32,262 nt of DNA from assembly GCA_028717305.1 (NCBI GenBank), contig JAQUOC010000003.1, positions 1-32,262 on the forward strand. The letters are read 5' to 3'. The translations under genes and the position numbers were made by a program. Below, piece by piece: positions 12,810-32,262 of this stretch. This DNA is from Dehalococcoidales bacterium. Lineage in GTDB: Bacteria; Chloroflexota; Dehalococcoidia; Dehalococcoidales; UBA5760. Each line of letters opens with the position of its first letter. Positions within the stretch are counted from its first letter, which is position 1. The notes under the pieces were generated by a model. That model had not been told where the DNA came from, did not search any database, and worked only from the letters and a program-made list of their open reading frames with translations.

Positions 12810-13586
12810 TTATGATCTTCTAAACTTTATTATCTCCGCCAAGATGCTAACCGCAATCTCTTCTGGGGTTTTGGCGTTGATTTCCAGCCCGATAGGAGCA
12901 TGAACCCTGTCCAGTTGTTTCTGGGATATTCCCTTGGCCAGCAAGTTTGCGAATAAGGCCTTATTCTTGGTCTTACTGCCCAGCATACCGATATATCCCG
13001 CTGATGTGGTTAAGGCTTGCTCCAGCACTACCTCGTCATACTTGTGCTCCCGGGTAATAACGATGATAATGCCTGTTTTCGTTATATTTAATTTAGGGAA
13101 AACCTTATCGAAGCCTTCGATGAATATGGCATCCGCCTCCGGGAAACGCTGCGGATTAGCGAACTCCTCGCGGTCATCAATCACTGCAATTCGGAAGTTT
13201 AAGAGCTTGCCGATTTTAGCCACTGGGAGCGACATATGGCCACCACCGAAGAGATAAAGTATGGGTGAAGACGCCACAGGTTCAATAAAGACCTCCAGAT
13301 TACCGCCGCAAATCATCCCCATCCCTTTACCTTCCTCTTCAGTCAGGCTAAGTTGAAACCGATCCGGTTTACCCTTCCTCATGACCTGAGCAGCCAGCTC
13401 GCATACCCTAGCCTCCAGACCACCACCGCCGATGGAACCAACAATACTCCCATCAGCCTTCAACAGCATCTTGGTGCCTTCCTCACGCGGCGTAGAACCT
13501 GAAGTTGAGACAATCGTAATCAGCGCCGCCTCTTCCCCATCCTCCATGGTTTTAACCATCTCTTTGTAAATATCCGTATCCGTCAT
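12810..13586 (-). CDS. xdhC: XdhC/CoxI family molybdenum hydroxylase maturation protein
   Basis: The 258-residue protein has the XdhC/CoxI architecture: an N-terminal half with SGSTPREEGTKM (29-40) and CGGNLEVFIEPV (93-104), and a Rossmann-type half starting LYLFGGGHMS (about 110-119), with YIGMLGSKTKN and HAPIGLEINAKTPEEIAVSI near the end. XdhC proteins bind molybdenum cofactor and deliver it, in sulfurated form, to xanthine dehydrogenase-type hydroxylases. It is last in an eight-gene operon, 2 nt after yqeC; a purine-rich GGGGGG ribosome site precedes the ATG. The combination with yqeB/yqeC points to the selenium-dependent branch of these hydroxylases rather than classical sulfurated xanthine dehydrogenase. 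Confidence 0.93.
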   Translation of the reverse strand: MTDTDIYKEMVKTMEDGEEAALITIVSTSGSTPREEGTKMLLKADGSIVGSIGGGGLEARVCELAAQVMRKGKPDRFQLSLTEEEGKGMGMICGGNLEVFIEPVASSPILYLFGGGHMSLPVAKIGKLLNFRIAVIDDREEFANPQRFPEADAIFIEGFDKVFPKLNITKTGIIIVITREHKYDEVVLEQALTTSAGYIGMLGSKTKNKALFANLLAKGISQKQLDRVHAPIGLEINAKTPEEIAVSILAEIIKFRRS

Positions 13587-13588
13587 CC

Positions 13589-14365
13589 CTACCCCCCTTC
13601 TGATATGATCTCTACCACTGGCTCTGCCAAACAGACCTGCCCCAGTAAGACATGCCTAATACCGGGGTGCCCCACCGCTAGAATCTCCCGCGCCAGTTCC
13701 CGCCCCTGCGACAACCCGCCGTCTCGGTCTACTTTATTGATAAAGGGGACAATCCGGGCATTTTCCGGACTTCCTTTGGTTATCCCTTGCCGGTGGGTTA
13801 CGAGTGTGGCAATAGCCGTATTCGACAGTGCTGCACCAAGCGGCAGTCCCAGTAGTCTGGCAGCAATGCCGGCTCTAAAGACCTCCTTCTCATTCAAAGA
13901 ACTACCTACCGCATCAACACCCACCACAGCAACGACCAGAGAGGTTCTATCCGGAATTACCGGCTCAGCATCATTCGGTGCCTTAAGTGGACGCCGGGCT
14001 GCCCCGTCTGCCTCCACAATAACATGAGACACCGTCTTTATCCCAATCAGCTTTTCTACCAGCCCCGGACGAATACCAGCCAGCTTCCCCGAAGCAAGCC
14101 GCTCCGAAGCCAGGGTAACATGGCAGCAATAGGATACACTCCGAAGGAACCGGCTTAGTAGCTCTGTTTCATCTTTTTCCACGATGACCAGCGGTGATTC
14201 GGTCAATAACGGCTCAAATATTTTGGTTGTGGTCGTGGTAACAACACAGCCACCAGCCAGAGCCAACTCCTCAGCCAGGGCAAACATGATACTTGTTTTA
14301 CCCCCACCCCCCACCAGGCTGATCACCTCACCGGGTCTTATCTGCAAAGCTTCTTCTAGTTTCAC
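13589..14365 (-). CDS. yqeC: Selenium cofactor biosynthesis protein YqeC
   Basis: The 258-residue protein carries a P-loop VGGGGKTS (18-25) followed by VVTTTTTKIFEP, the N-terminal signature of YqeC. VIVEADGAARRPLKAP near the middle is a further family block. YqeC is a putative ATPase found with SelD and YqeB in genomes having selenium-dependent molybdenum hydroxylases; its exact reaction is unknown. The start is GTG (14363-14365), 2 nt after the yqeB stop, with only a weak ribosome site, so translational coupling to yqeB is likely. Confidence 0.92.
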   Translation of the reverse strand: MKLEEALQIRPGEVISLVGGGGKTSIMFALAEELALAGGCVVTTTTTKIFEPLLTESPLVIVEKDETELLSRFLRSVSYCCHVTLASERLASGKLAGIRPGLVEKLIGIKTVSHVIVEADGAARRPLKAPNDAEPVIPDRTSLVVAVVGVDAVGSSLNEKEVFRAGIAARLLGLPLGAALSNTAIATLVTHRQGITKGSPENARIVPFINKVDRDGGLSQGRELAREILAVGHPGIRHVLLGQVCLAEPVVEIISEGG

Positions 14366-14367
14366 GG

Positions 14368-15168
14368 CTAAACGTTAAATCGCCTCAATATTGCTTCAAG
14401 TACACCACCGGATATCGCCCGTATCCGGGCCCGGATGCAATAACAGATGTCCTCACCCGCCACAGGATCGATTTCAAGCAGTTTGGTCCCCACTTCTACC
14501 GGGACTCCGTCCCGAATGAGGGCCCGGATGACGCCCCCGAGCGGGGCTTTAATCTCCTGCTCCCCAACCGAGCCGACTAACTCACCGGACGAGACCGTGT
14601 CACCCATCTCCTTCACCGCCCGGAACAGACCGCTCACGTTTGAGTGTATCACCCGCTCCGAGGTCAGTCCACCCACGGCAATCGGGATACCGGTATTCGA
14701 CTCCGCCTCTCCATCAAGGATTACCCGGCCCAGCTGCTCCGTATTGTTAGTCTCCACAACCATGTGCACGTCGCGACCCACCCTGAAACCGGGGCCCAGC
14801 CCGATAACCAGAGGGGCGTCGCTTATCTTCGTCCCCAGGTTCTTCTTAGCCATGACAGCATCAACAAACACGTCGGGATTAAGGGCATCCTTTATCTTAG
14901 CATCAGGATCAACAATAACCGGTATCCGGTTACCTGACCATGCCCTATGTATCCCAGACAATGAATTTACCAGTACGCCAGTCACGTCCTCGATTTCTTT
15001 TTCGTTGTCATACACCGCTTCGGAGAAGGTAACCCCCCGACTCACCGCCTGGGGATGGGGTATCTCCATTAAACAGACCCGGAGATGAGCCTGGAATAGA
15101 CGGTGCGCTACACCGCTGGCCACCTCGCCTCCACCCTTGATCAGTACCACCAATTTGTTAAGGTTCAT
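14368..15168 (-). CDS. yqeB: Selenium-dependent molybdenum hydroxylase system protein YqeB (EF2563 family)
   Basis: The 266-residue protein begins LVVLIKGGGEVASGVAHRL (6-24), the N-terminal nucleotide-binding-like motif of the YqeB/EF2563 family, followed by MEIPHPQAVSRGVTFSEAVYD. The C-terminal half contains a lipoyl/biotinyl-like segment (GELVGSVGEQEIKAPLGGVI, about 200-220). The family is a genomic marker for selenium-dependent molybdenum hydroxylases; the biochemical role is not established. Its ATG overlaps the TGA of the upstream DUF364 gene (ATGA), which places that DUF364 gene in the same translational unit. Full length for the family. Confidence 0.93.
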   Translation of the reverse strand: MNLNKLVVLIKGGGEVASGVAHRLFQAHLRVCLMEIPHPQAVSRGVTFSEAVYDNEKEIEDVTGVLVNSLSGIHRAWSGNRIPVIVDPDAKIKDALNPDVFVDAVMAKKNLGTKISDAPLVIGLGPGFRVGRDVHMVVETNNTEQLGRVILDGEAESNTGIPIAVGGLTSERVIHSNVSGLFRAVKEMGDTVSSGELVGSVGEQEIKAPLGGVIRALIRDGVPVEVGTKLLEIDPVAGEDICYCIRARIRAISGGVLEAILRRFNV

Positions 15169-15890
15169 CTCTGCCTTTCCTTTACCATATTAACCAGCCT
15201 CACTCCCCTCACCTGCCGGAAGATGGCACCCTCGCTGATGGAACGGATAACCGACTCCGGTTCATCGACTATCGCCCCGCTAATGACGTCCACTCCCCAG
15301 TCGAAAAGGAGCGGGGACAACGGGCTGGTCGGCCCTACCAGTATGATGAAACTATCCTGGCTCAACGCAAGCAACCTTTCCAGGGTGTGATTTATGAATG
15401 ATGTCCCGGTAATGGCAACCACGTCAGCCTGAGGAAGAAACTTGTCTGCCGCCGCGGCAGGAAAGTCATCGTCCCGGGGCCTTTGCTCAAGGACCCAGAG
15501 TTCCCTGGCAACGTCTTTTAATTTCGGAACCCAGGGGAAGTGGCCCACCACAGCAATATTCTTCCCCTGCCCTCTTGCCATCAGCATATCCAGAGCATTT
15601 TCCGTAACGCACCTGGCTTCGTCAACATCGATCAGCGAGTTAACAGCCGCCATACCGATCGACGCCTCAAGGAGATTATCTGATTGAGCATACCGTGCAA
15701 TCTCCAGAGCCGGTTTACCACGCAGTGCTCCTGCCTCCCGTACCATGCCATGATGGGGATGGTCACCGCGGAAGGTGGAGGAAAGCCCGCAGTTTTTGCT
15801 GACGACCGCCGTCCAGAAGGCGCACGAGTAGACCTCACGAATCATGCTGTTACCCTTCAGTGTAGCGATTAAATCATCCAACAGCTTCAT
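15165..15890 (-). CDS. DUF364 domain protein (putative metal-handling), copy 1
   Basis: The 241-residue protein shows the DUF4213-DUF364 organisation: an N-terminal half ending ARYAQSDNLLEASIGMAAVNSLID, and a Rossmann-like half starting NIAVVGHFPWVPKL (about 110) and ending in ITGTSFINHTLERLL and ILVGPTSPLSPLLFDWGVD. The family is annotated as a putative heavy-metal chelation domain, found near metal-cofactor genes; no enzyme activity is proven. A strong GGAGGT site lies 4 nt before the ATG. It overlaps yqeB by 4 nt and follows a second DUF364 gene by 9 nt, so both are embedded in the hydroxylase-maturation operon. Metal or cofactor handling is an inference. Confidence 0.85.
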   Translation of the reverse strand: MKLLDDLIATLKGNSMIREVYSCAFWTAVVSKNCGLSSTFRGDHPHHGMVREAGALRGKPALEIARYAQSDNLLEASIGMAAVNSLIDVDEARCVTENALDMLMARGQGKNIAVVGHFPWVPKLKDVARELWVLEQRPRDDDFPAAAADKFLPQADVVAITGTSFINHTLERLLALSQDSFIILVGPTSPLSPLLFDWGVDVISGAIVDEPESVIRSISEGAIFRQVRGVRLVNMVKERQR

Positions 15891-15899
15891 TCTGACCTC

Positions 15900-16637
15900 C
15901 TAATGTCCACAACGGCAGAATCTCTTCAATCCCAGCAGCTCCGCCGTTCCGGAGATAGTGGTGCCGTAGAAGATAGCCTCTTTACCTTCTACCATCTTCA
16001 GCATCGGCTCAATAGTGCCGTTCACTATCGTGGTACCGGTTACCAAGGCAATATCACACCAGTTAAGATTCTCTTCTGTTTTCTCCGGACCACAAACGAT
16101 GACCCCAAACTTCTCAGCACCGATATTTTTTTCATCCAGGTCCGTCACCATTATCTCGAATTTCGATGACAAGGCCTCAATCATTCGTGGCTGAAAGCCG
16201 ATAAACGCGACTCGGGGGTGTCCGTAGGTTTGCTCGATATAATCCGCAAGCTCATTAGCACACTGCCGGGGTTCTTCATCCCGGCAGTGAACCGTTCCGG
16301 CCGTCTTCCTCAGATACCGCATTACCGCATTAAGGCTGGCAATGAAGACAGCCCGCTGGAAATTATCACTGAGTGCCATCGAGGCGACATCCAAAAGACA
16401 CCCGTTATAGTTATCATACATATCGGTAAATGCCTGCCCATAGCAGCTCTGGAACTCGGCCTGCATCAGACGCTCACGCCCCACTATCAACGGGTAATCG
16501 CGATCCTTAGGTCTGCCGATAGCTTCCTCAGCAGACAGTGGAGCAGCCCTGATGATAATCTCATCCGACTCGAGGTTGTTCTCCTTGATGCTGGCAATGA
16601 ATTTCTCCCTGAGAGAGTCATAAATGTTTGGCTTCAT
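15900..16637 (-). CDS. DUF364 domain protein, copy 2, with CRCGH tail
   Basis: The 245-residue protein is a divergent paralogue of its downstream neighbour. Shared blocks are the helical MALSDNFQRAVFIASLNAVMRYL segment (about 86-108), RVAFIGFQPRMIEALS (about 140), and CDIALVTGTTIVNGTIEPML followed by IFYGTTISGTAELLGL at the end. The last residues, RFCRCGH, add a Cys-x-Cys-x-His cluster absent from copy 1 and suitable for metal binding. It overlaps the end of the ABC ATPase gene by 20 nt. Its AAGG ribosome site lies inside that gene, indicating coupled expression with the transporter. Function is unknown; proposed role is accepting or sensing the transported species. Confidence 0.83.
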   Translation of the reverse strand: MKPNIYDSLREKFIASIKENNLESDEIIIRAAPLSAEEAIGRPKDRDYPLIVGRERLMQAEFQSCYGQAFTDMYDNYNGCLLDVASMALSDNFQRAVFIASLNAVMRYLRKTAGTVHCRDEEPRQCANELADYIEQTYGHPRVAFIGFQPRMIEALSSKFEIMVTDLDEKNIGAEKFGVIVCGPEKTEENLNWCDIALVTGTTIVNGTIEPMLKMVEGKEAIFYGTTISGTAELLGLKRFCRCGH

Positions 16638-20500: not shown

Positions 20501-21457
20501 TTAAACCAGACCTAAAACCGGGTAACCGCCTCTCTCTTGTGCCTTACCGAATATTAGCTTTGCAACAGCCAAGTCCTGTATAGCCACACCGGTAGAATCA
20601 AAAACAGTTATTGCCTTACTATCTGTTCTCCCTTTCTTCTTACCGGTAAGTACTTCAGCCAGAGTTGCATAAATTTCATCGACGGTAAAAAGACCTTTGC
20701 TTATCGGCATGTTGATCTCCCCGCCATGACTTGCCTGTACTACTTCGTCTACGACCACCATAGCATCTCTCAGTATAGATGGCTCCAGCTCCTCTTTACC
20801 TGCCCCATCTGCTCCGACCGCATTTATATGCGTTCCATCAGCGACCCACCTTCTCTTAATTATGGGTTCACGAGATGGCGTTAGAGTACAGACAATATCC
20901 GAAGATACTGCCTCCTCCAACGAACATTTCCTTATCGGGTACTCAGGCAACGAACTGATTAGTTTATCCATATTTTCCGTAGCAATATCAAAAGCGTTTA
21001 TCGAAGTCAGTTCGAATAATTCAGCGTGCGCTATTATCTGAGTATAAGCTTGACAACCAGCGCCTACTATCCCAAGGGTATTCGAATTCCGCCGAGCCAG
21101 ATATTTAGAGGCTATGGCCGCTATAGCTCCTGTACGACAGTATGTAATCTCGGTACCATCCATCACTGCCAGAGGAAATCCCGTTTCCGGATCATTGCAG
21201 ATTAATACTGCCATGACTGCGGGGAGAGAGTGGGAACGATTAAAAGGGTGAGAATTTACCCATTTTACTCCGGCGAAACCAGGTAAGGCAGCCGGCATGG
21301 CCCTGAAGTCCCCGCGTTCAACAGTCAAATATGCCTTTGGCGGCATGTTGGCTTTACCTTCGGCCCACGCTTTAAAAGCTTCTTCGACTACATTTATGAC
21401 TTCCGACATATTGATGAGACTTCGAATAGCACTTCTATCTAACAAAATCGTGGACAT
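20501..21457 (-). CDS. Ornithine cyclodeaminase/mu-crystallin family dehydrogenase
   Basis: The track starts at 21520, but the ATG at 21457 follows a perfect AGGAGG by 9 nt and gives the family's normal N-terminus (MSTILLDRSAIRSLINMSEVINVVEEAFKAW), so 318 residues are proposed. The Rossmann motif GIVGAGCQAYTQ and the substrate region FRAMPAALPGFAGVKWVNSHP are typical. Family members include ornithine cyclodeaminase, alanine dehydrogenase, imine (ketimine) reductase and N-substituted amino-acid enzymes; the sequence does not choose among them. It is the last gene of the TRAP transporter operon, 156 nt after the PLP enzyme, suggesting it processes an amino or imino acid derived from the imported compound. 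The 156-nt gap shows nothing else. Confidence 0.9.
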   Translation of the reverse strand: MSTILLDRSAIRSLINMSEVINVVEEAFKAWAEGKANMPPKAYLTVERGDFRAMPAALPGFAGVKWVNSHPFNRSHSLPAVMAVLICNDPETGFPLAVMDGTEITYCRTGAIAAIASKYLARRNSNTLGIVGAGCQAYTQIIAHAELFELTSINAFDIATENMDKLISSLPEYPIRKCSLEEAVSSDIVCTLTPSREPIIKRRWVADGTHINAVGADGAGKEELEPSILRDAMVVVDEVVQASHGGEINMPISKGLFTVDEIYATLAEVLTGKKKGRTDSKAITVFDSTGVAIQDLAVAKLIFGKAQERGGYPVLGLV

Positions 21458-21613
21458 AGAATTAATCCTCCTGTTCACTCCTAATACGCACGCCAACCGC
21501 GTCAAGAAATCATGCCCCACGCAGACCGGATATAATCACGACCCTTGCATCTATTGTCTCTGCCCAAACTCGACTGGTTATCGACCCCCTTAAACACTAA
21601 CTCCGCTGACCAG

Positions 21614-22615
21614 CTAATCACTCAATTCTTGATTGTAAGCGAAGTCAGCAGCCACCCCCCCAGTATGGACAAAGAGCATGGTATCTGCCTTGGTAAACAC
21701 CCCTTTATTGATGAGATCTATAAGTCCAGCCATTGCTTTGCCGGTATATACGGGGTCAAGGAATATCGCTTCGGTCTGCGCCACTAATCTGATAGCTTCG
21801 ATACCCTCCCGAGTTGGTATCCCGTAGCCTTGCCCTAGATAGTCGTCGTAAATAGTTACCTCTTCCGGCTTTATGATTATATCCAGACCGAGTAGCTCAG
21901 CCGCGGCGTTAGCTTGGTCAACAACGACAGCGGTAGCCTCATTTCTGTGGTTAACAACACTGATACCAACGACATTCATGGTAGATTTAAGATATTTGAA
22001 CCCCAATACCAAGCCCGCCTGGGTTCCCCCCGAGCCATTGGCCAAAATCAAATGCCGGGTTTCTATCTCCAGCTTCTTCAGCTGTTGAACAATCTCCTCA
22101 GCAGCGCTAACCCAGCCAACAACTCCGAGGGGCATGGTAACACCAACCGGTAATATCAACGGGTTACGACCCTGACCACGCAGCCTATCAGCCAAACTAC
22201 TCGCCTTCTTAAGCATGGTGGTGAACATTTCACGTGGGTCAGCTACTTCAAAAAGTTCCATTGTTGTATTCAGTATGTTAGCCAGTAAGAGATTACCCTG
22301 TTTTTCCGGATGAACACCTTTAAATAATAGTAAGTAGGGCTCCAACCCTAACTTACGGCTGGCGGCAGCTACCTCCAGGGCAGAATTGGACTGCGAACTC
22401 CCAACGGTTACAACAGTATCAATCCCTCTTTGCCTGGCATCAGCCAGTACATACTCCAGCTTACGAAACTTATTGCCGCCTAAGGCCAGCCCGCTCAAGT
22501 CATCACGCTTAACAAATATTCGTGGTCCGCTCAGGACGTCCGACAGTCGTGTTAACTCATGTAAAGGAGTGGGCCAATAGCCTAAATCAACCCGCGGTAA
22601 CTTCACTATAGACAT
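21614..22615 (-). CDS. PLP enzyme of the D-cysteine desulfhydrase/L-cysteate sulfo-lyase/ACC deaminase family
   Basis: The track uses a TTG at 22621; the ATG at 22615 is preferred, giving 333 residues. GGNKFRKLE contains the PLP lysine (Lys49), and DPVYTGKAMAGLI and FVHTGG are family blocks of DcyD and cysteate sulfo-lyase (CuyA) proteins. These enzymes cleave D-cysteine to pyruvate, sulfide and ammonia, L-cysteate to pyruvate, sulfite and ammonia, or open the ring of ACC. The active-site loop reads SSQSNSALE where family members usually have [GI]QSNHxRQ or QSNQTRQ, so the His/Gln and Arg are replaced by Ser and Leu. It starts 12 nt after dctM, so it probably acts on the TRAP-imported compound. 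Confidence 0.85.
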   Translation of the reverse strand: MSIVKLPRVDLGYWPTPLHELTRLSDVLSGPRIFVKRDDLSGLALGGNKFRKLEYVLADARQRGIDTVVTVGSSQSNSALEVAAASRKLGLEPYLLLFKGVHPEKQGNLLLANILNTTMELFEVADPREMFTTMLKKASSLADRLRGQGRNPLILPVGVTMPLGVVGWVSAAEEIVQQLKKLEIETRHLILANGSGGTQAGLVLGFKYLKSTMNVVGISVVNHRNEATAVVVDQANAAAELLGLDIIIKPEEVTIYDDYLGQGYGIPTREGIEAIRLVAQTEAIFLDPVYTGKAMAGLIDLINKGVFTKADTMLFVHTGGVAADFAYNQELSD

Positions 22616-22627
22616 AACCAACTTTCT

Positions 22628-26552: not shown

Positions 26553-26728
26553 AGCGTAGTTTATTTGTTAAAATGGAATGTCTTTGTAAAACGATCATGC
26601 TGAAGTGCTAATGATATAAAAGAAATAAGAAGTTGGATTAATTTTGATTTTGTGCCGGCAGTAATATTACGAAGATTACACCCAGCAAGTGGTGATCTAA
26701 GCAAGGAATGCTTTTGAAGGAGATACCT

Positions 26729-27895
26729 GTGGAAAAGATTGTATATCTTGATAATACAGCAACGGTCTATCCCAAGCCAAAAGAAGTGATCGATTTCATG
26801 TGCCAATTCTACCGTGAAAAGGGCGTGAATCCCGGTCGCTCGGGATACGATCTTTGTGTAGAGGCTGGGGAGCTTGTATTTGAGACCAGGGAGATGTTGA
26901 CCAAGCTCTTTAATGGAGCTGACCCCAACCGACTTGTCTTTACCTATAATGCTTCGGATTCACTGAATATTATTATCAATGGTATCTTGGAGCCGGGGGA
27001 TCACGTAATAACTTCTAATCTGGAGCACAATTCCGTTCTACGCCCTATCCACCACTTGTATAGTGAAGGAATAGTTGAGGTAGACTATGTCCCTTTTGAT
27101 AACGAGGGTTATATCGACCCGGATGATATAAGAAAAAAGATGAAGAAGAATACCAAGCTGGTGATTATCAGTCACGCTTCAAACGTAATCGGTACAGTTC
27201 AGCCGGTCGGTGAGATCGGGAAGATCTGTAGAGAGAGGTCAGTGATATTTGCCATAGACGCAGCCCAAACCGCCGGCATCATACCCATTGACATTGAGGC
27301 CATGAATATCGATATTGTCGCTTTCACCGGCCATAAATCTCTGCTCGGCCCCACGGGCATTGGGGGAATCTACGTACGGGATGGAGTTGAGATTGCTCAG
27401 ACTCGGGCTGGTGGCACCGGCGTGCGTTCCGCCTATCCATTCCATCTACCGGAATATCCTTACCGGCTTGAGGTTGGCACGGTAAATCTGCTGGGTGTCG
27501 CAGGCTTAAACGCCGGACAAAAGTACATTGCTAAAAGGGGCCTCAATAACATCCATAAGGAAGAGATGAGACTGCTGGACCTATTTCAACAGGGGCTCTC
27601 GGAGATCGATCATATTACAACTTATGGTACGAAATCGCTGCAGAACCGGATGCCGGTACTCTCACTTAATATCGAGGGATACAAAGCTTTTGACACCGGG
27701 ATACTGCTCGATGGTGATTATGACATTGCCGTCAGAACCGGACTGCATTGCGCCCCAAAAGCACACGAACAATTGGGGACAGTTCCCGAAGGGTCAGTAC
27801 GGTTTGGTATTGGCCCAATGAATACCGAGTATGACATCCTTCACGCTATCGAAGCTGTGAAGGAGCTGGCTCCGACAAGAGCCACCTGCAAGTAG
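26729..27895 (+). CDS. Cysteine desulfurase family protein (EF2568-like aminotransferase class V)
   Basis: The track starts at ATG 26708, which has no properly spaced ribosome site; AAGGAG (26717-26722) lies 6 nt before GTG 26729, so VEKIVYLDNTATVYPKP is taken as the start, giving 388 residues. Class V fold marks are YLDNTAT, the PLP lysine in FTGHKSLLGPTG (Lys203) and the cysteine in RTGLHCAPKAH (Cys341), which would carry the persulfide. The GLHCAP form resembles the EF2568 subgroup, which often accompanies yqeB/selD in selenium-dependent hydroxylase genomes. It precedes dsrC by 39 nt on the same strand, so DsrC is a candidate persulfide acceptor. Sulfur versus selenium preference is not readable. 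Confidence 0.9.
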   Translation: MEKIVYLDNTATVYPKPKEVIDFMCQFYREKGVNPGRSGYDLCVEAGELVFETREMLTKLFNGADPNRLVFTYNASDSLNIIINGILEPGDHVITSNLEHNSVLRPIHHLYSEGIVEVDYVPFDNEGYIDPDDIRKKMKKNTKLVIISHASNVIGTVQPVGEIGKICRERSVIFAIDAAQTAGIIPIDIEAMNIDIVAFTGHKSLLGPTGIGGIYVRDGVEIAQTRAGGTGVRSAYPFHLPEYPYRLEVGTVNLLGVAGLNAGQKYIAKRGLNNIHKEEMRLLDLFQQGLSEIDHITTYGTKSLQNRMPVLSLNIEGYKAFDTGILLDGDYDIAVRTGLHCAPKAHEQLGTVPEGSVRFGIGPMNTEYDILHAIEAVKELAPTRATCK

Positions 27896-27934
27896 AAACG
27901 CTGAAAGTAAAACTGAAGAGAGGATAGATAAGAT

Positions 27935-28252
27935 ATGCCAAAACTAGCCCTCGGTGAGATGGAAATCGAAGTTGATGAAAATGGTTTCATGAAGAATCCT
28001 GATGAGTGGAACCAGGCTATAGCTGAAGAGTTGGCCAAGACCGAAAATGCCCACCCAATGAATGAAGATGCCTGGAAAATAGTGAACTATCTTAGAGAGT
28101 ACTATCTTGATAAAGGTGTAGCACCACCGATCCGGATGCTGGTCAAGCAAACCGGGCTCAAACTGAAAGATATTTATCAGCTATTCCCCAACGGACCAGG
28201 CAGAGGCGCCTGTAAGGTGGCCGGATTACCCCGTCCCACCGGCTGTGTCTAG
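27935..28252 (+). CDS. dsrC: DsrC family sulfur carrier with both conserved cysteines
   Basis: The 105-residue product has the length of DsrC and ends GPGRGACKVAGLPRPTGCV. It keeps the penultimate Cys104 and Cys93, ten residues apart; TusE-type relay proteins lack Cys93. In sulfite reducers these two cysteines carry the sulfur atom from DsrAB as a trisulfide that a membrane or Hdr-type complex later reduces. The N-terminus MPKLALGEMEIEVDENGF and the middle PPIRMLVKQTGLKLKDIYQLFP are typical. An AGAGGA site lies upstream. It sits between a cysteine desulfurase and a giant HdrA-type protein; DsrAB is not in the window. Confidence 0.95.
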   Translation: MPKLALGEMEIEVDENGFMKNPDEWNQAIAEELAKTENAHPMNEDAWKIVNYLREYYLDKGVAPPIRMLVKQTGLKLKDIYQLFPNGPGRGACKVAGLPRPTGCV

Positions 28253-28506
28253 TTTTGCAGGACGGGGAAAGCCATATCTTTACGACTGCTCACAATCAGG
28301 CAAAGTAACAGGTAAAACAAGAAGACAAAGTTTAGAGTATTATTTTACTACCATGGTCCACCTATCGGCGCTAATATTTGCTACTTATCTAATCTGGAAA
28401 CGACCAGGCAGGGATCCGTTATTGCTCTTAGCTTAAGTGAGGGTTCTGTCCCGATCGGTTACGAGAAACCTCATTAGCGCTAACAAATACCTTTGGCTGT
28501 GAGAAC
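28253..28506 (+). other. Intercistronic region between dsrC and the HdrA-like gene
   Basis: This 254-nt gap holds no convincing gene: the 63-codon ORF overlapping the dsrC end has no ribosome site and no known features. It contains a 10-bp stem with one mismatch, TGAGGGTTCT (28438-28447) and AGAAACCTCA (28464-28473), whose loop includes the palindrome CCGATCGG, 34 nt before the next start codon. No consensus promoter was found, so read-through from upstream is likely. Confidence 0.5.
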
Positions 28507-31500
28507 ATGGAAGGGTTAGCCACGAAAAATGTAATTATGCAGAAAGTGGGAGGCGTGCTGGTTGTTGGCGGTGGCGTAGCTGGAATTCAGGCATCACTTG
28601 ATCTTGCCGAGTCGGGATATAGGGTTTACCTGCTGGAGAAATCCCCAGCCATTGGTGGCACCATGTCTCAACTGGATAAGACCTTCCCCAGCAACGACTG
28701 CGCCATGTGTATACTATCGCCGAAGCTTGTGGAATGCGGCAGGCACCTGAACATCGATGTAATAACTAACGCAGAATTAAAGGAAGTCAGTGGCGAGGCG
28801 GGCAGGTTTAGGGCAGTAATCGAGAAAAAACCGAGATATATCGATATAGACAGGTGCACCGGCTGTGGGGAGTGCACATCAGTATGCCCTGTAGAGTTAC
28901 CCAATCTCTTCGACGAGGGGTTGAGTCAACGGAAGGCAGTTTTTAGACCATTTGCTCAGGCCTATCCATCCGCCTTTACCATTGATAAGAAGGAAAGACC
29001 CCCCTGTGTAACAGCTTGTCCGGCGCATGTAAATGTACAGGGTTATATCGCCCTAATCAGCCAGGGAAAATACAAAGAGGCGCTGGATTTAATAAAGGAG
29101 AACCTTCCGCTAGCCGGTGTACTGGGTCGCGTTTGTCCTCGGCCCTGTGAAGCTGAATGCAAACGAGGCACTGTTGATGAGCCATTAGCTATCGCCGCTC
29201 TCAAAAGATTCGTCGCCGATAGAGCCGGTGATGAATTACCGCCGGACGTAAAAACAAAAGACGATAAGGTGGCAATAATCGGCTCAGGACCGGCCGGGCT
29301 TACCGCAGCCTATTATCTGGCTAAGGAGGGTTATCAGGTAACAGTTTTTGAAGCTCTTCCCGTAGCCGGAGGTATGCTCTATGTAGGTATTCCGGAGTAT
29401 CGTCTCCCCAAAGGTATGTTAGAGGAAGAAATAGAGGGAATTAAGAAGCTGGGGGTAGCGATTAGAACTAACACTCCGGTAGGCAAGAAGCTATCCCTGG
29501 CAGATCTCACAGAACAAGGATACAAAGCCGTATTCATTGCCGCCGGCGCTCACAAGAGTCAGAGGTTGGGTATTCCCGGCGAAGAGTCCGAGGGAGTTAT
29601 CGATGGAGTTACCTTCCTGAGAAACGTGAATCTAGGAGAGAGAATTCAACCTAAAGGTCGGGTGGCAATAATAGGGGGTGGAAATGTAGCGATAGATGCG
29701 GCCAGGAGCGTCTTACGGCTCAGAGCAGACCAAGTTTCCATCCTTTATCGAAGGTCTCGCGCCGAGATGCCAGCAAGTGATGAGGAAATAGAATCCGCTT
29801 TGGCTGAGGGAGTTGATATTCAACACCTGGTCGCTCCGGTGGAGATTCTCTCTCAAAGTGGCACAGTAGTAGGACTGAGGTGCATCCGGATGGAACTGGG
29901 GCCTCCGGATGCATCAGGCCGATGCAGCCCGATGCCCATATCAGGCTCGGAGTTTAATATTGATGCGGATATAGTAATACCTGCCATAGGCCAGATTCCG
30001 GACCTGTCATTTATTGACGACTCGGGATTGGAGGTTAACAAACGGGGAATTATTGTTGCCGATCCGCTAACCCTGGCTACCAGCCGACCGGGAATCTTTG
30101 CCGGCGGGGACGTCCAAACCGGACCCGGTCTAGCTATTGAGGCTGTAGCCGCCGGCAAGAGAGCAGCTATCTCTATTGACAGATACCTCAGGGGTGAGGA
30201 TATCGAAGCAGGCAGGACAGCGGAGGAGACAAAGCCCGCTACCATGACCGAGCTCCCCCCCAAAGTGGAACGCAAGCCGAGAGTAAAGATGCCCGTCCTC
30301 AATATGGAGAGAAGGTGCGGGGGCTTCGACGAAGTTGAACTGGGTTTTACTGAAGAGATGGCTATCCAGGAAGCCAGGCGGTGTTTAAACTGCGGCGTCT
30401 GCTCGGAGTGTATGCAGTGTGTTGCCTCCTGCGAGGCTGAGGCTATCAATCACCTGATGAAAACAGAGAGCCTGGAAATTGAGGTGGGTTCCGTTATATT
30501 GTGCCCCGGCTTTGATAAATTCGAGGCCGGAGTCTTCTCTAATTATGGTTACGGCATTTTCCCTAATGTGATAACCAGCATGGAGTTCGAGAGGATTCTG
30601 AGCGCCTCCGGTCCTTTTAAGGGTCAGCTTCTCCGGCCCTCAGACAGAGAGGCACCACAAAGGATTGCGTGGCTTCAGTGCGTGGGCTCCAGAGACATAA
30701 ATATCGCTCAAAACAGCTACTGCTCCTCAGTATGTTGCACCTACGCTATAAAGGAAGCGGTAGTAGCCAAGGAACATAGTTCCGTTCACCTTGAAACCAG
30801 CATCTTCTTTATGGATATCAGGACCTACGGTAAAGACTTCGAGCGTTATTATGAGCGGGCAAAGGAGGAACACGGTGTTCGATTCATAAGATCAAGAATA
30901 CACTCCATCCGTCAAGATGATGATGGGGGTCTTCTCATCAGGTACGCCAGTGAGGCGGGTGGGATAGAGGAGGAGAAATTCGACCTGGTGGTTCTCTCGG
31001 TAGGACTTAAACCGCCGTCAGCGGCAAAAGATCTGTCGGAAAGGCTCGGGCTCGGGCTTAACCAATACGGATTTTGCCAGGTTGGGGAGTTCTCGCCGGT
31101 AGCCACTTCTAAACCCGGGATATTCGCTGCCGGCGCGTTTACCGGGCCGAGAGATATCCCGGAAACAGTAGTTGAGGCAAGCGCTGCAGCTAGCGATGTT
31201 TCCTGCTTGCTATCCACAGTCCGGCATACGCTGACCATGGAGAAGCAGTACCCGCCGGAGAGAGACGTCACCGGAGAGAAGCCGCGAATCGGGGTCTTCA
31301 TCTGCTACTGCGGCATCAACATCGGGGGGGTAGTAAACGTCCCCGAAATAAAAGAATATGCCAGATCCTTACCCAATGTGGTCTTCTCTGACGACAATCT
31401 ATTCACCTGTTCGCAGGATACTCAGCAGAGAATAAAGGAGAAAATACGGGAATACAATCTTAATCGAGTAGTGGTGGCCTCCTGTACTCCTCGAACTCAT

Positions 31501-32262
31501 GAGCCACTGTTCCAGGAGACGCTCAGGGAGGCCGGGCTAAATAAACACCTCTTTGAAATGACAAATATTCGGGACCAGTGCTCCTGGGTTCATATGCGCC
31601 AGCCGGATAAGGCTACCGCTAAGGCCAAGGACTTGATAAGAATGTCGGTAGCCAAGGCACGGCTGATCGAGCCGTTGAAGCAGATACCGGTTGGAGTACA
31701 TCACGCTGCTTTGATCATTGGCGGCGGCATTTCAGGTATGGTTAGTGCCCTGAATCTGGCCGGGCAGGGATTTGAGGTCCACCTGGTGGAAAGAACCTCC
31801 CATCTCGGTGGCATCGCCAACAGGATACACCACACCCTTGAAGGCCTGGATGTCCAGACTTATCTCGGAGACCTCATCAATAAGGTCTCCAGTGAGCCGT
31901 TAATAAACATCTATAAAGAGGCTGATATCCTGGAAGTCAGCGGCTACGTAGGTAACTTCACCACTAAACTGCTGCTAAGCTCTGAGAAGGAATCCCGGGA
32001 GATAAATCACGGGGTTGCCATAATCACGAGCGGGGCTGAAGTCTATCGACCCGATGAGTACCTCTATGGTAAAGACTCCAGGGTATTTACCATACTGGAG
32101 CTGGAGGAGGAGATTGCCCGGGGTAATCCCCGGGTGTGTCTAAGTAAAAATGTGGTAATTATCCAGTGTGTGGGCTCCAGAGAAAAAGAAAGACCCTATT
32201 GCAGCCGAATTTGCTGTAGCGAATCAATAAAGTGTGCCCTCAAACTGAAGGAGATAAATCCC
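28507..32262 (+). CDS. Giant HdrA-GltD-HdrA flavoprotein oxidoreductase (3' end outside window)
   Basis: The frame is open for 1252 codons to the window end. The order is: HdrA-type FAD domain (GGGVAGIQ, 21-28; FPSNDCAMCILSPKL); a 4Fe-4S motif CTGCGECTSVCP (117-128); a GltD-type unit with PPCVTACPAHVNVQG (from 165), FAD motif GSGPAGLTAAY (259 on) and NAD(P) motif GGGNVAIDAA (390 on); a cysteine-rich CLNCGVCSECMQCVASC (626-642); an HdrA C-terminal part with CVGSRD and CSSVCC (from 725); then a second HdrA starting RIGVFICYCG (927), with CSQDTQ, FAD motif GGGISG (1072) and CVGSRE (1221). Such proteins move electrons between NAD(P)H, ferredoxin and disulfide-type acceptors, possibly by flavin bifurcation. 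The ATG at 28507 is chosen; 28537 is an alternative. It follows dsrC. Confidence 0.92.
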   Translation, partial: MEGLATKNVIMQKVGGVLVVGGGVAGIQASLDLAESGYRVYLLEKSPAIGGTMSQLDKTFPSNDCAMCILSPKLVECGRHLNIDVITNAELKEVSGEAGRFRAVIEKKPRYIDIDRCTGCGECTSVCPVELPNLFDEGLSQRKAVFRPFAQAYPSAFTIDKKERPPCVTACPAHVNVQGYIALISQGKYKEALDLIKENLPLAGVLGRVCPRPCEAECKRGTVDEPLAIAALKRFVADRAGDELPPDVKTKDDKVAIIGSGPAGLTAAYYLAKEGYQVTVFEALPVAGGMLYVGIPEYRLPKGMLEEEIEGIKKLGVAIRTNTPVGKKLSLADLTEQGYKAVFIAAGAHKSQRLGIPGEESEGVIDGVTFLRNVNLGERIQPKGRVAIIGGGNVAIDAARSVLRLRADQVSILYRRSRAEMPASDEEIESALAEGVDIQHLVAPVEILSQSGTVVGLRCIRMELGPPDASGRCSPMPISGSEFNIDADIVIPAIGQIPDLSFIDDSGLEVNKRGIIVADPLTLATSRPGIFAGGDVQTGPGLAIEAVAAGKRAAISIDRYLRGEDIEAGRTAEETKPATMTELPPKVERKPRVKMPVLNMERRCGGFDEVELGFTEEMAIQEARRCLNCGVCSECMQCVASCEAEAINHLMKTESLEIEVGSVILCPGFDKFEAGVFSNYGYGIFPNVITSMEFERILSASGPFKGQLLRPSDREAPQRIAWLQCVGSRDINIAQNSYCSSVCCTYAIKEAVVAKEHSSVHLETSIFFMDIRTYGKDFERYYERAKEEHGVRFIRSRIHSIRQDDDGGLLIRYASEAGGIEEEKFDLVVLSVGLKPPSAAKDLSERLGLGLNQYGFCQVGEFSPVATSKPGIFAAGAFTGPRDIPETVVEASAAASDVSCLLSTVRHTLTMEKQYPPERDVTGEKPRIGVFICYCGINIGGVVNVPEIKEYARSLPNVVFSDDNLFTCSQDTQQRIKEKIREYNLNRVVVASCTPRTHEPLFQETLREAGLNKHLFEMTNIRDQCSWVHMRQPDKATAKAKDLIRMSVAKARLIEPLKQIPVGVHHAALIIGGGISGMVSALNLAGQGFEVHLVERTSHLGGIANRIHHTLEGLDVQTYLGDLINKVSSEPLINIYKEADILEVSGYVGNFTTKLLLSSEKESREINHGVAIITSGAEVYRPDEYLYGKDSRVFTILELEEEIARGNPRVCLSKNVVIIQCVGSREKERPYCSRICCSESIKCALKLKEINP

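Follow-up and report, generated by a model that had tools for sequence, protein, structure and literature searches.

A cysteine desulfurase gene, a gene for a two-cysteine DsrC and a gene for an HdrA-type flavoprotein stand in a run at the end of contig JAQUOC010000003.1 (C3) of the Dehalococcoidales bacterium assembly GCA_028717305.1, a metagenome-assembled genome (MAG) of an uncultured member of the class Dehalococcoidia. The window analysed here is this whole contig, 32,262 nucleotides in length. A search of the same MAG placed the probable remainder of HdrA and the other FlxABCD-HdrABC subunits on a second contig, so the locus very probably reads desulfurase, dsrC and a complete flx-hdr set. 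This gene content, in a MAG (78% complete) where no sulfite reductase was found, suggests that sulfur can be cycled on DsrC in this bacterium without sulfite. We tentatively favor reading the locus as a soluble, sulfite-independent DsrC cycle that includes sulfur loading by the desulfurase, and we consider it probable that Flx-Hdr acts on the DsrC of the window.

DsrC is usually taken to indicate dissimilatory sulfite reductase and to be its obligate partner. If the proposed cycle operates, DsrC would be separable from sulfite and usable for cysteine-derived sulfur, and dsrC alone would be an unsafe marker of sulfite reduction. Dehalococcoidia would gain a route to hydrogen sulfide (H2S) and energy that needs neither sulfite nor sulfate, and the locus would provide a small, testable protein set for the role of DsrC in genomes without dsrAB.

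The desulfurase and DsrC genes

A sequence-only reading of this DNA had placed the three genes on one strand and noted that DsrC keeps Cys93 and Cys104. Both observations were confirmed (Table 1). The two residues are the only cysteines of the protein, one penultimate and the other 11 residues upstream, as in two-cysteine DsrC proteins, and DsrC scored 110.5 bits against TIGR03342 (cut-off 53.5). The desulfurase scored 451.5 bits against TIGR01977, the cut-off of which is 377. Its longest open reading frame (ORF) spans 26708-27895, with a likely GTG start at 26729 behind an AAGGAG at 26717, and its catalytic motifs are intact, with GHKS at residue 208 and GLHCA at residue 345 when numbered from 26708.

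Only 39 bp separate the desulfurase gene from dsrC. The same reading had also given the three genes a single clear promoter, which our scan did not support, as 6 promoter-like sites were found where 5.7 are expected by chance. A terminator scan of the forward strand between the three genes found none, with no signal above chance. We infer that the genes may be co-transcribed.

Probable continuation of the locus on a second contig

The hdrA gene is still open at the end of C3. When we searched the MAG with the C-terminus of the best homolog, a single candidate for the missing end was retrieved, right at the beginning of contig C17 (L204:1-864). The first 168 bases of C17 match the last 168 of the window at 156 positions (93%), corresponding to 53 of 56 residues, and both contigs end exactly at the limits of this overlap. 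We read C3 and C17 as what is probably a single locus broken by strain variation, and the joined HdrA would be approximately 1483 amino acids (aa) long. An HdrA of similar build, with an NfnB insert and approximately 1490 aa, was found end to end in approximately 17 other genomes of the order. The tetranucleotide distance of C3 to the remaining MAG is 0.090, inside the range of 0.070-0.237 seen over the other contigs, and mis-binning of C3 was rejected on this ground; the distance for C17 is 0.154.

After the end of HdrA, C17 carries flxD (of the MvhD type), flxC, flxB, flxA, hdrC and hdrB, followed by unrelated genes. An independent genome, a Deltaproteobacteria MAG with locus L046 (VGSS01000075.1), has the identical order flxD-C-B-A-hdrC after its hdrA. 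It is this match in order, together with the HdrA overlap, that makes a desulfurase - dsrC - complete flx-hdr locus very probable. Conditional on the join, all seven FlxABCD-HdrABC subunits are present together. HdrB contains two CCG motifs (residues 10-82 and 155-237), and many 4Fe-4S motifs are spread across the Flx-Hdr subunits. HdrB of this type was found in one other of 393 genomes of the class, a DsrC-bearing one (63% identity), with the remaining matches at approximately 34% or less, while a second Deltaproteobacteria MAG, with locus L057 (JAGXTA010000121.1), has an HdrB 70% identical to that of C17. The "giant HdrA-GltD flavoprotein" of the sequence-only reading was correctly typed, but it is truncated by the contig end and is not a lone flavoprotein, being probably one subunit of FlxABCD-HdrABC.

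HdrA and its inserted NfnB domain

The NfnB/GltD domain is inserted in HdrA after the first 4Fe-4S motif. It contains a YRR motif of the kind tied to NADP(H) preference (PMC7596348) and shares 40-44% identity with DsrL-like ORFs found at other dsr loci. It is not itself a DsrL, i.e., a stand-alone NfnB-like protein beside dsrAB or dsrC, since it sits inside HdrA. The NfnB-HdrA fusion is common in the order and is therefore not special to this locus; in the order, NfnB-containing HdrA proteins usually adjoin hdrB, hdrC, mvhD, metV and metF.

In a tree of HdrA proper, the window sequence groups with those of L057 and L046, all of them linked to dsrC (support 100/99), apart from the metVF-linked HdrA proteins of the order, and it is 66-67% identical to its two partners. 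No metV or metF was found on C3 or among the genes of C17 after hdrA. The tree and the gene neighbors together rule out the order's usual methylene-tetrahydrofolate reductase module as the identity of this HdrA.

The insertion site has a counterpart in L046, where nuoE- and nuoF-type genes split hdrA after the N-terminal approximately 130 residues (L046:3666-9750), near the point at which NfnB is inserted in the window. Two different pyridine-nucleotide modules thus occupy one HdrA site in the two loci. A further NfnB-like insert, 43% identical to that of HdrA, was seen in the MAG itself, in a 789-aa protein with a start like that of the xanthine dehydrogenase FAD subunit (L204:10049-12418, reverse strand).

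Linkage of each half of the locus to dsrC in other genomes

The sequence-only reading had suggested looking for a conserved trio in related genomes; the full trio was found only here. Each of its halves was found elsewhere. The pairing of dsrC with this HdrA clade occurs inside the dsrABDN-C operons of the two Deltaproteobacteria MAGs, and the pairing of dsrC with this desulfurase clade occurs in Latescibacterota, Acidobacteria and a proteobacterium.

In these last three loci, a TIGR01977 gene adjoins dsrC in the order desulfurase, dsrC (L090, Latescibacterota), dsrC, desulfurase with divergent dsrMK (L080, the proteobacterium) or dsrC-dsrM-dsrK-desulfurase (L092, Acidobacteriaceae). The genomes of L080 and L090 showed only single sulfite-reductase-type genes and no dsrAB-type pair, and the L092 genome has a dsrAB-like pair elsewhere than at its dsrC locus. 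In the desulfurase tree, the window sequence and those of these three dsrC loci, which together represent four phyla, fall into a single clade with 100/100 support against 29 other members from the class, and the clade keeps 99/100 after six background sequences, plasmid-borne ones included, are added. The window desulfurase is 53-55% identical to its clade mates, at most 48% identical to other members from the class and at most 47% identical to the plasmid-borne members listed. By a rough count, far fewer than one chance desulfurase neighbor would be expected among approximately 70 loci. Since the clade adjoins dsrC in three phyla where no Flx-Hdr is nearby, it appears to follow DsrC and not the complex.

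Ahead of the L092 locus lie genes for two regulators of the Lrp/AsnC type and, in divergent orientation, one for a Cys/Met-metabolism enzyme dependent on pyridoxal phosphate (PLP) (L092:3-1193, 1316-2234), neighbors that hint at sulfur amino acid catabolism.

The proposed cycle and known systems

In the cycle we propose, the desulfurase would take sulfur from cysteine, leaving alanine, and charge Cys104 of DsrC with it in the form of sulfane sulfur, whereupon Cys93, to judge from the conserved pair, would close a disulfide or trisulfide. FlxA would be the entry point for NADH and the NfnB domain of HdrA that for NADPH, and electrons would run via HdrA and HdrC to the two CCG clusters of HdrB, reducing DsrC and releasing H2S; a second, low-potential electron pair may go to ferredoxin. 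The transfer of sulfur, the direction of the reaction and the bifurcation are what we infer from these parts. A broader version, a sulfite-independent DsrC respiration or fermentation in which a dedicated desulfurase clade of several phyla charges DsrC with sulfur from cysteine and either Flx-Hdr or DsrMK discharges it as H2S, conserving energy without DsrAB, we hold to be doubtful.

Parts of this scheme are already known, namely the association of DsrC with Flx-Hdr, the NfnB-HdrA fusion and the loading of DsrC by a desulfurase in vitro. DsrC of D. vulgaris is reported to interact with FlxABCD-HdrABC (Ferreira 2023, cited in PMC10504309) and to work with Flx-Hdr during fermentative growth (PMC10504309). 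When supplied with cysteine, E. coli IscS persulfurates the DsrC of A. vinosum on its penultimate cysteine with up to 2 sulfur atoms (PMC3397948), which makes transfer from a desulfurase to DsrC chemically reasonable. The D. vulgaris system has the same FlxA-D and HdrA-C families and DsrC as the proposed disulfide partner. The window differs from it in having dsrC ahead of flx-hdr, a desulfurase before dsrC and NfnB in HdrA as a second pyridine-nucleotide site, and in that no DsrAB or DsrMK was found in its MAG.

The L046 and L057 loci, arranged as dsrABDN-C-hdrA(-flx/hdrCB), resemble the window in that dsrC directly precedes an HdrA of the same clade. They lack a desulfurase and carry dsrAB and dsrN on the upstream side, and in contrast to the HdrA of the window with its NfnB domain, that of L057 lacks an insertion and the hdrA of L046 is split as described above. 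The MetVF-HdrABC-MvhD clusters, which encode methylene-tetrahydrofolate reductase in Chloroflexi and Moorella, share an NfnB-containing HdrA with the window, and related clusters of this type have been described for marine Chloroflexi (PMC5736913). In the locus described here, dsrC and Flx take the place of metVF, and HdrA branches apart. The L092, L080 and L090 loci resemble the window in that a two-cysteine dsrC is linked to a TIGR01977 desulfurase from this one clade; we found no paper on these three loci. Nor did we find, in the open-access literature, any paper on the combination of the three genes, on a dsrC-linked desulfurase clade or on dsrC heading an flx-hdr operon.

Alternative explanations

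The main alternative, which we judge unlikely, is that the organism is an ordinary sulfite reducer whose dsrAB and dsrMK fall in the unrecovered 22% of the genome, with DsrC and Flx-Hdr serving as an accessory electron route to the DsrC-trisulfide. The MAG comprises 1,304,637 bases on 134 contigs and is just 78% complete, which favors this explanation and weighs against the cycle proposed above. The absence of DsrAB noted by the sequence-only reading held for the window and for the remainder of the MAG, where targeted searches with dsrA and the NIR_SIR domain gave no match while two DsrAB-bearing relatives (G140 and G072) responded as controls; at this completeness, the absence is suggestive and not final. 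On what was recovered, the MAG therefore does not qualify as a Dsr-type sulfite reducer, which requires DsrAB in the genome. A DsrK query likewise had a single distant match in the MAG, to a CCG protein of 390 aa (E 6e-8), too remote to count as DsrMK. In this clade, dsrAB normally adjoin dsrC, which they do not do here. The DsrC tree speaks both ways. The window DsrC is the sister (96/82) of the DsrAB-linked DsrC of G140, which comes from a dsrAB-N-C-MK operon, as would suit a sulfite reducer, but it sits on a long branch (0.43) and deviates at five positions (D16N, Q20K, E21N, A89G and K100R) that are kept in at least 32 of 34 DsrAB-linked DsrC proteins. The dsrABDN operons around dsrC-hdrA in L046 and L057 also suit a sulfite reducer, as do the genes on C3 for a CuyA-like lyase and a binding protein of the SsuA family, since the CuyA-like lyase and the transporters would deliver sulfite from sulfonates. 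Because of the DsrC and HdrA trees and the distribution of HdrB, the dsrC-hdr half of the locus has the look of a fragment from the operon of a sulfite reducer, one that has lost dsrAB or moved away from it.

Several further points weigh against a sulfite-independent cycle with desulfurase loading. A gap of 254 bp separates hdrA from dsrC, no promoter stands out at the locus, and the overlap between C3 and C17 is 93% and not 100%. Eight other genomes of the genus have no DsrC over the family cut-off, a result that counts against the sulfite-reducer explanation as well, and the trio is absent from all other DsrC-bearing Dehalococcoidia loci examined. The nearest HdrA relatives have dsrAB and dsrN right beside dsrC-hdrA. 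Where the desulfurase is linked to dsrC elsewhere, the partner is DsrMK (L080 and L092) or no reductase is in view (L090), and not Flx-Hdr; outside the class, relatives of the desulfurase were sampled only through dsrC loci and plasmids, so the clade carries an ascertainment bias.

It is quite improbable that DsrC merely carries electrons to and from Flx-Hdr during fermentation, as a thiol/disulfide couple, with the desulfurase serving the iron-sulfur supply of the complex. The fermentative partnership proposed for D. vulgaris (PMC10504309) and the richness of the Flx-Hdr subunits in 4Fe-4S motifs would both agree with such a role, but in three further phyla the desulfurase clade adjoins dsrC although Flx-Hdr genes are not among its neighbors. 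A TusE-like relay, passing sulfur to tRNA thiolation or cofactor synthesis while Flx-Hdr only reduces DsrC, is very unlikely: a desulfurase feeding a protein of the TusE/DsrC family (TIGR03342) does resemble the Tus relay, but the TusE model gives 74 against a cut-off of 191, the locus contains no TusBCD-like gene, and both DsrC cysteines are kept, while in organisms that lack DsrAB the first is missing from nearly all TusE-type proteins (PMC3397948). Scarcely probable at all is that the desulfurase belongs with the selenium/molybdenum hydroxylase genes of C3 (YqeB, YqeC and XdhC types, at 12.8-16 kb) and stands before dsrC incidentally. TIGR01977 does include SclA, which is found with such genes in Enterococcus, but the SclA selenocysteine lyase model gives 343 against a cut-off of 525, and the window desulfurase groups with the dsrC-linked ones of other phyla. 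Moreover, the MAG has a second TIGR01977 gene on contig C117 (L283), directly before DUF3343-like and SelD-like genes; with this separate copy beside SelD, the window desulfurase is not the selenium one, and a selenium or molybdenum-hydroxylase role was rejected for it.

Other DsrC proteins and the contig context

DsrC is present in 18 of the 156 genomes of the order, in most cases together with dsrMK but with no dsrAB next to it; a dsrAB-N-C-MK operon occurs in two of these 18. A search of viral contigs gave no DsrC match, and on plasmids only gammaproteobacterial TusE-type proteins below 60% identity were found. Approximately 16 genomes of the order (L024-L039) have dsrM, dsrK and a two-cysteine dsrC with no dsrAB alongside, most of them adding a C_GCAxxG_C_C redox protein (PF09719), and dsrA was not found genome-wide in those that were tested. 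These loci are a second kind of DsrC without DsrAB.

More divergent DsrC-like domains were also observed. In L114, L118 and L115 (genomes G259, G329 and G319), DsrK-like CCG proteins carry a C-terminal DsrC-like domain without redox cysteines, and the next gene encodes a second small DsrC-like protein, again without the usual C-terminal cysteine pair. In L119, L120 and L122, proteins of approximately 220-240 aa consist of two tandem DsrC-like domains without the usual C-terminal cysteine.

Table 1. Features of the desulfurase-dsrC-hdrA locus and its context in the window.
Feature	Position	Strand	Remarks
desulfurase	26729..27895	+	TIGR01977; PLP lysine in GHKS, catalytic cysteine in GLHCAP
dsrC	27935..28252	+	105 aa; TIGR03342, PF04358; Cys93 and Cys104
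dsrC-hdrA gap	28253..28506	+	254 bp; neither terminator nor inverted repeat found
hdrA with inserted NfnB/GltD domain	28507..32262	+	1252 aa present, open at contig end
4Fe-4S motif CTGCGECTSVC	28855..28887	+	residue 117; closes the N-terminal part of HdrA, immediately ahead of the insertion
NfnB-type (NADPH-binding GltD-like) insert	28996..30201	+	residues ~164-565; YRR at residue 414 (nt 29746)
HdrA proper	30382..32262	+	residues ~626 to contig end; in one group with the dsrC-linked HdrA proteins of L046 and L057
CuyA / D-cysteine desulfhydrase family PLP lyase	21614..22621	-	context, membership uncertain
alanine dehydrogenase-like (ornithine cyclodeaminase family)	20501..21520	-	context, membership uncertain

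A TRAP transporter is also encoded on C3, and it, the CuyA-like lyase gene and the alanine dehydrogenase-like gene are divergent from the desulfurase-dsrC-hdrA locus. The lyase falls below the cut-offs of both CuyA (341 bits, cut-off 450) and TIGR01275 (288.8, cut-off 289.4), and the alanine dehydrogenase-like protein below that of TIGR02371 (388 bits, cut-off 409), leaving the general TRAP model as the only one over its cut-off among these context genes. The three genes would fit a use of cysteine or sulfonates. A scan of the window for RNA elements yielded tRNAs only. Between tRNA genes and an ABC transporter, at 12810-16637 on the reverse strand, lie XdhC-, YqeC- and YqeB-like genes with two short ORFs, which are probably molybdenum-hydroxylase/selenium cofactor genes.

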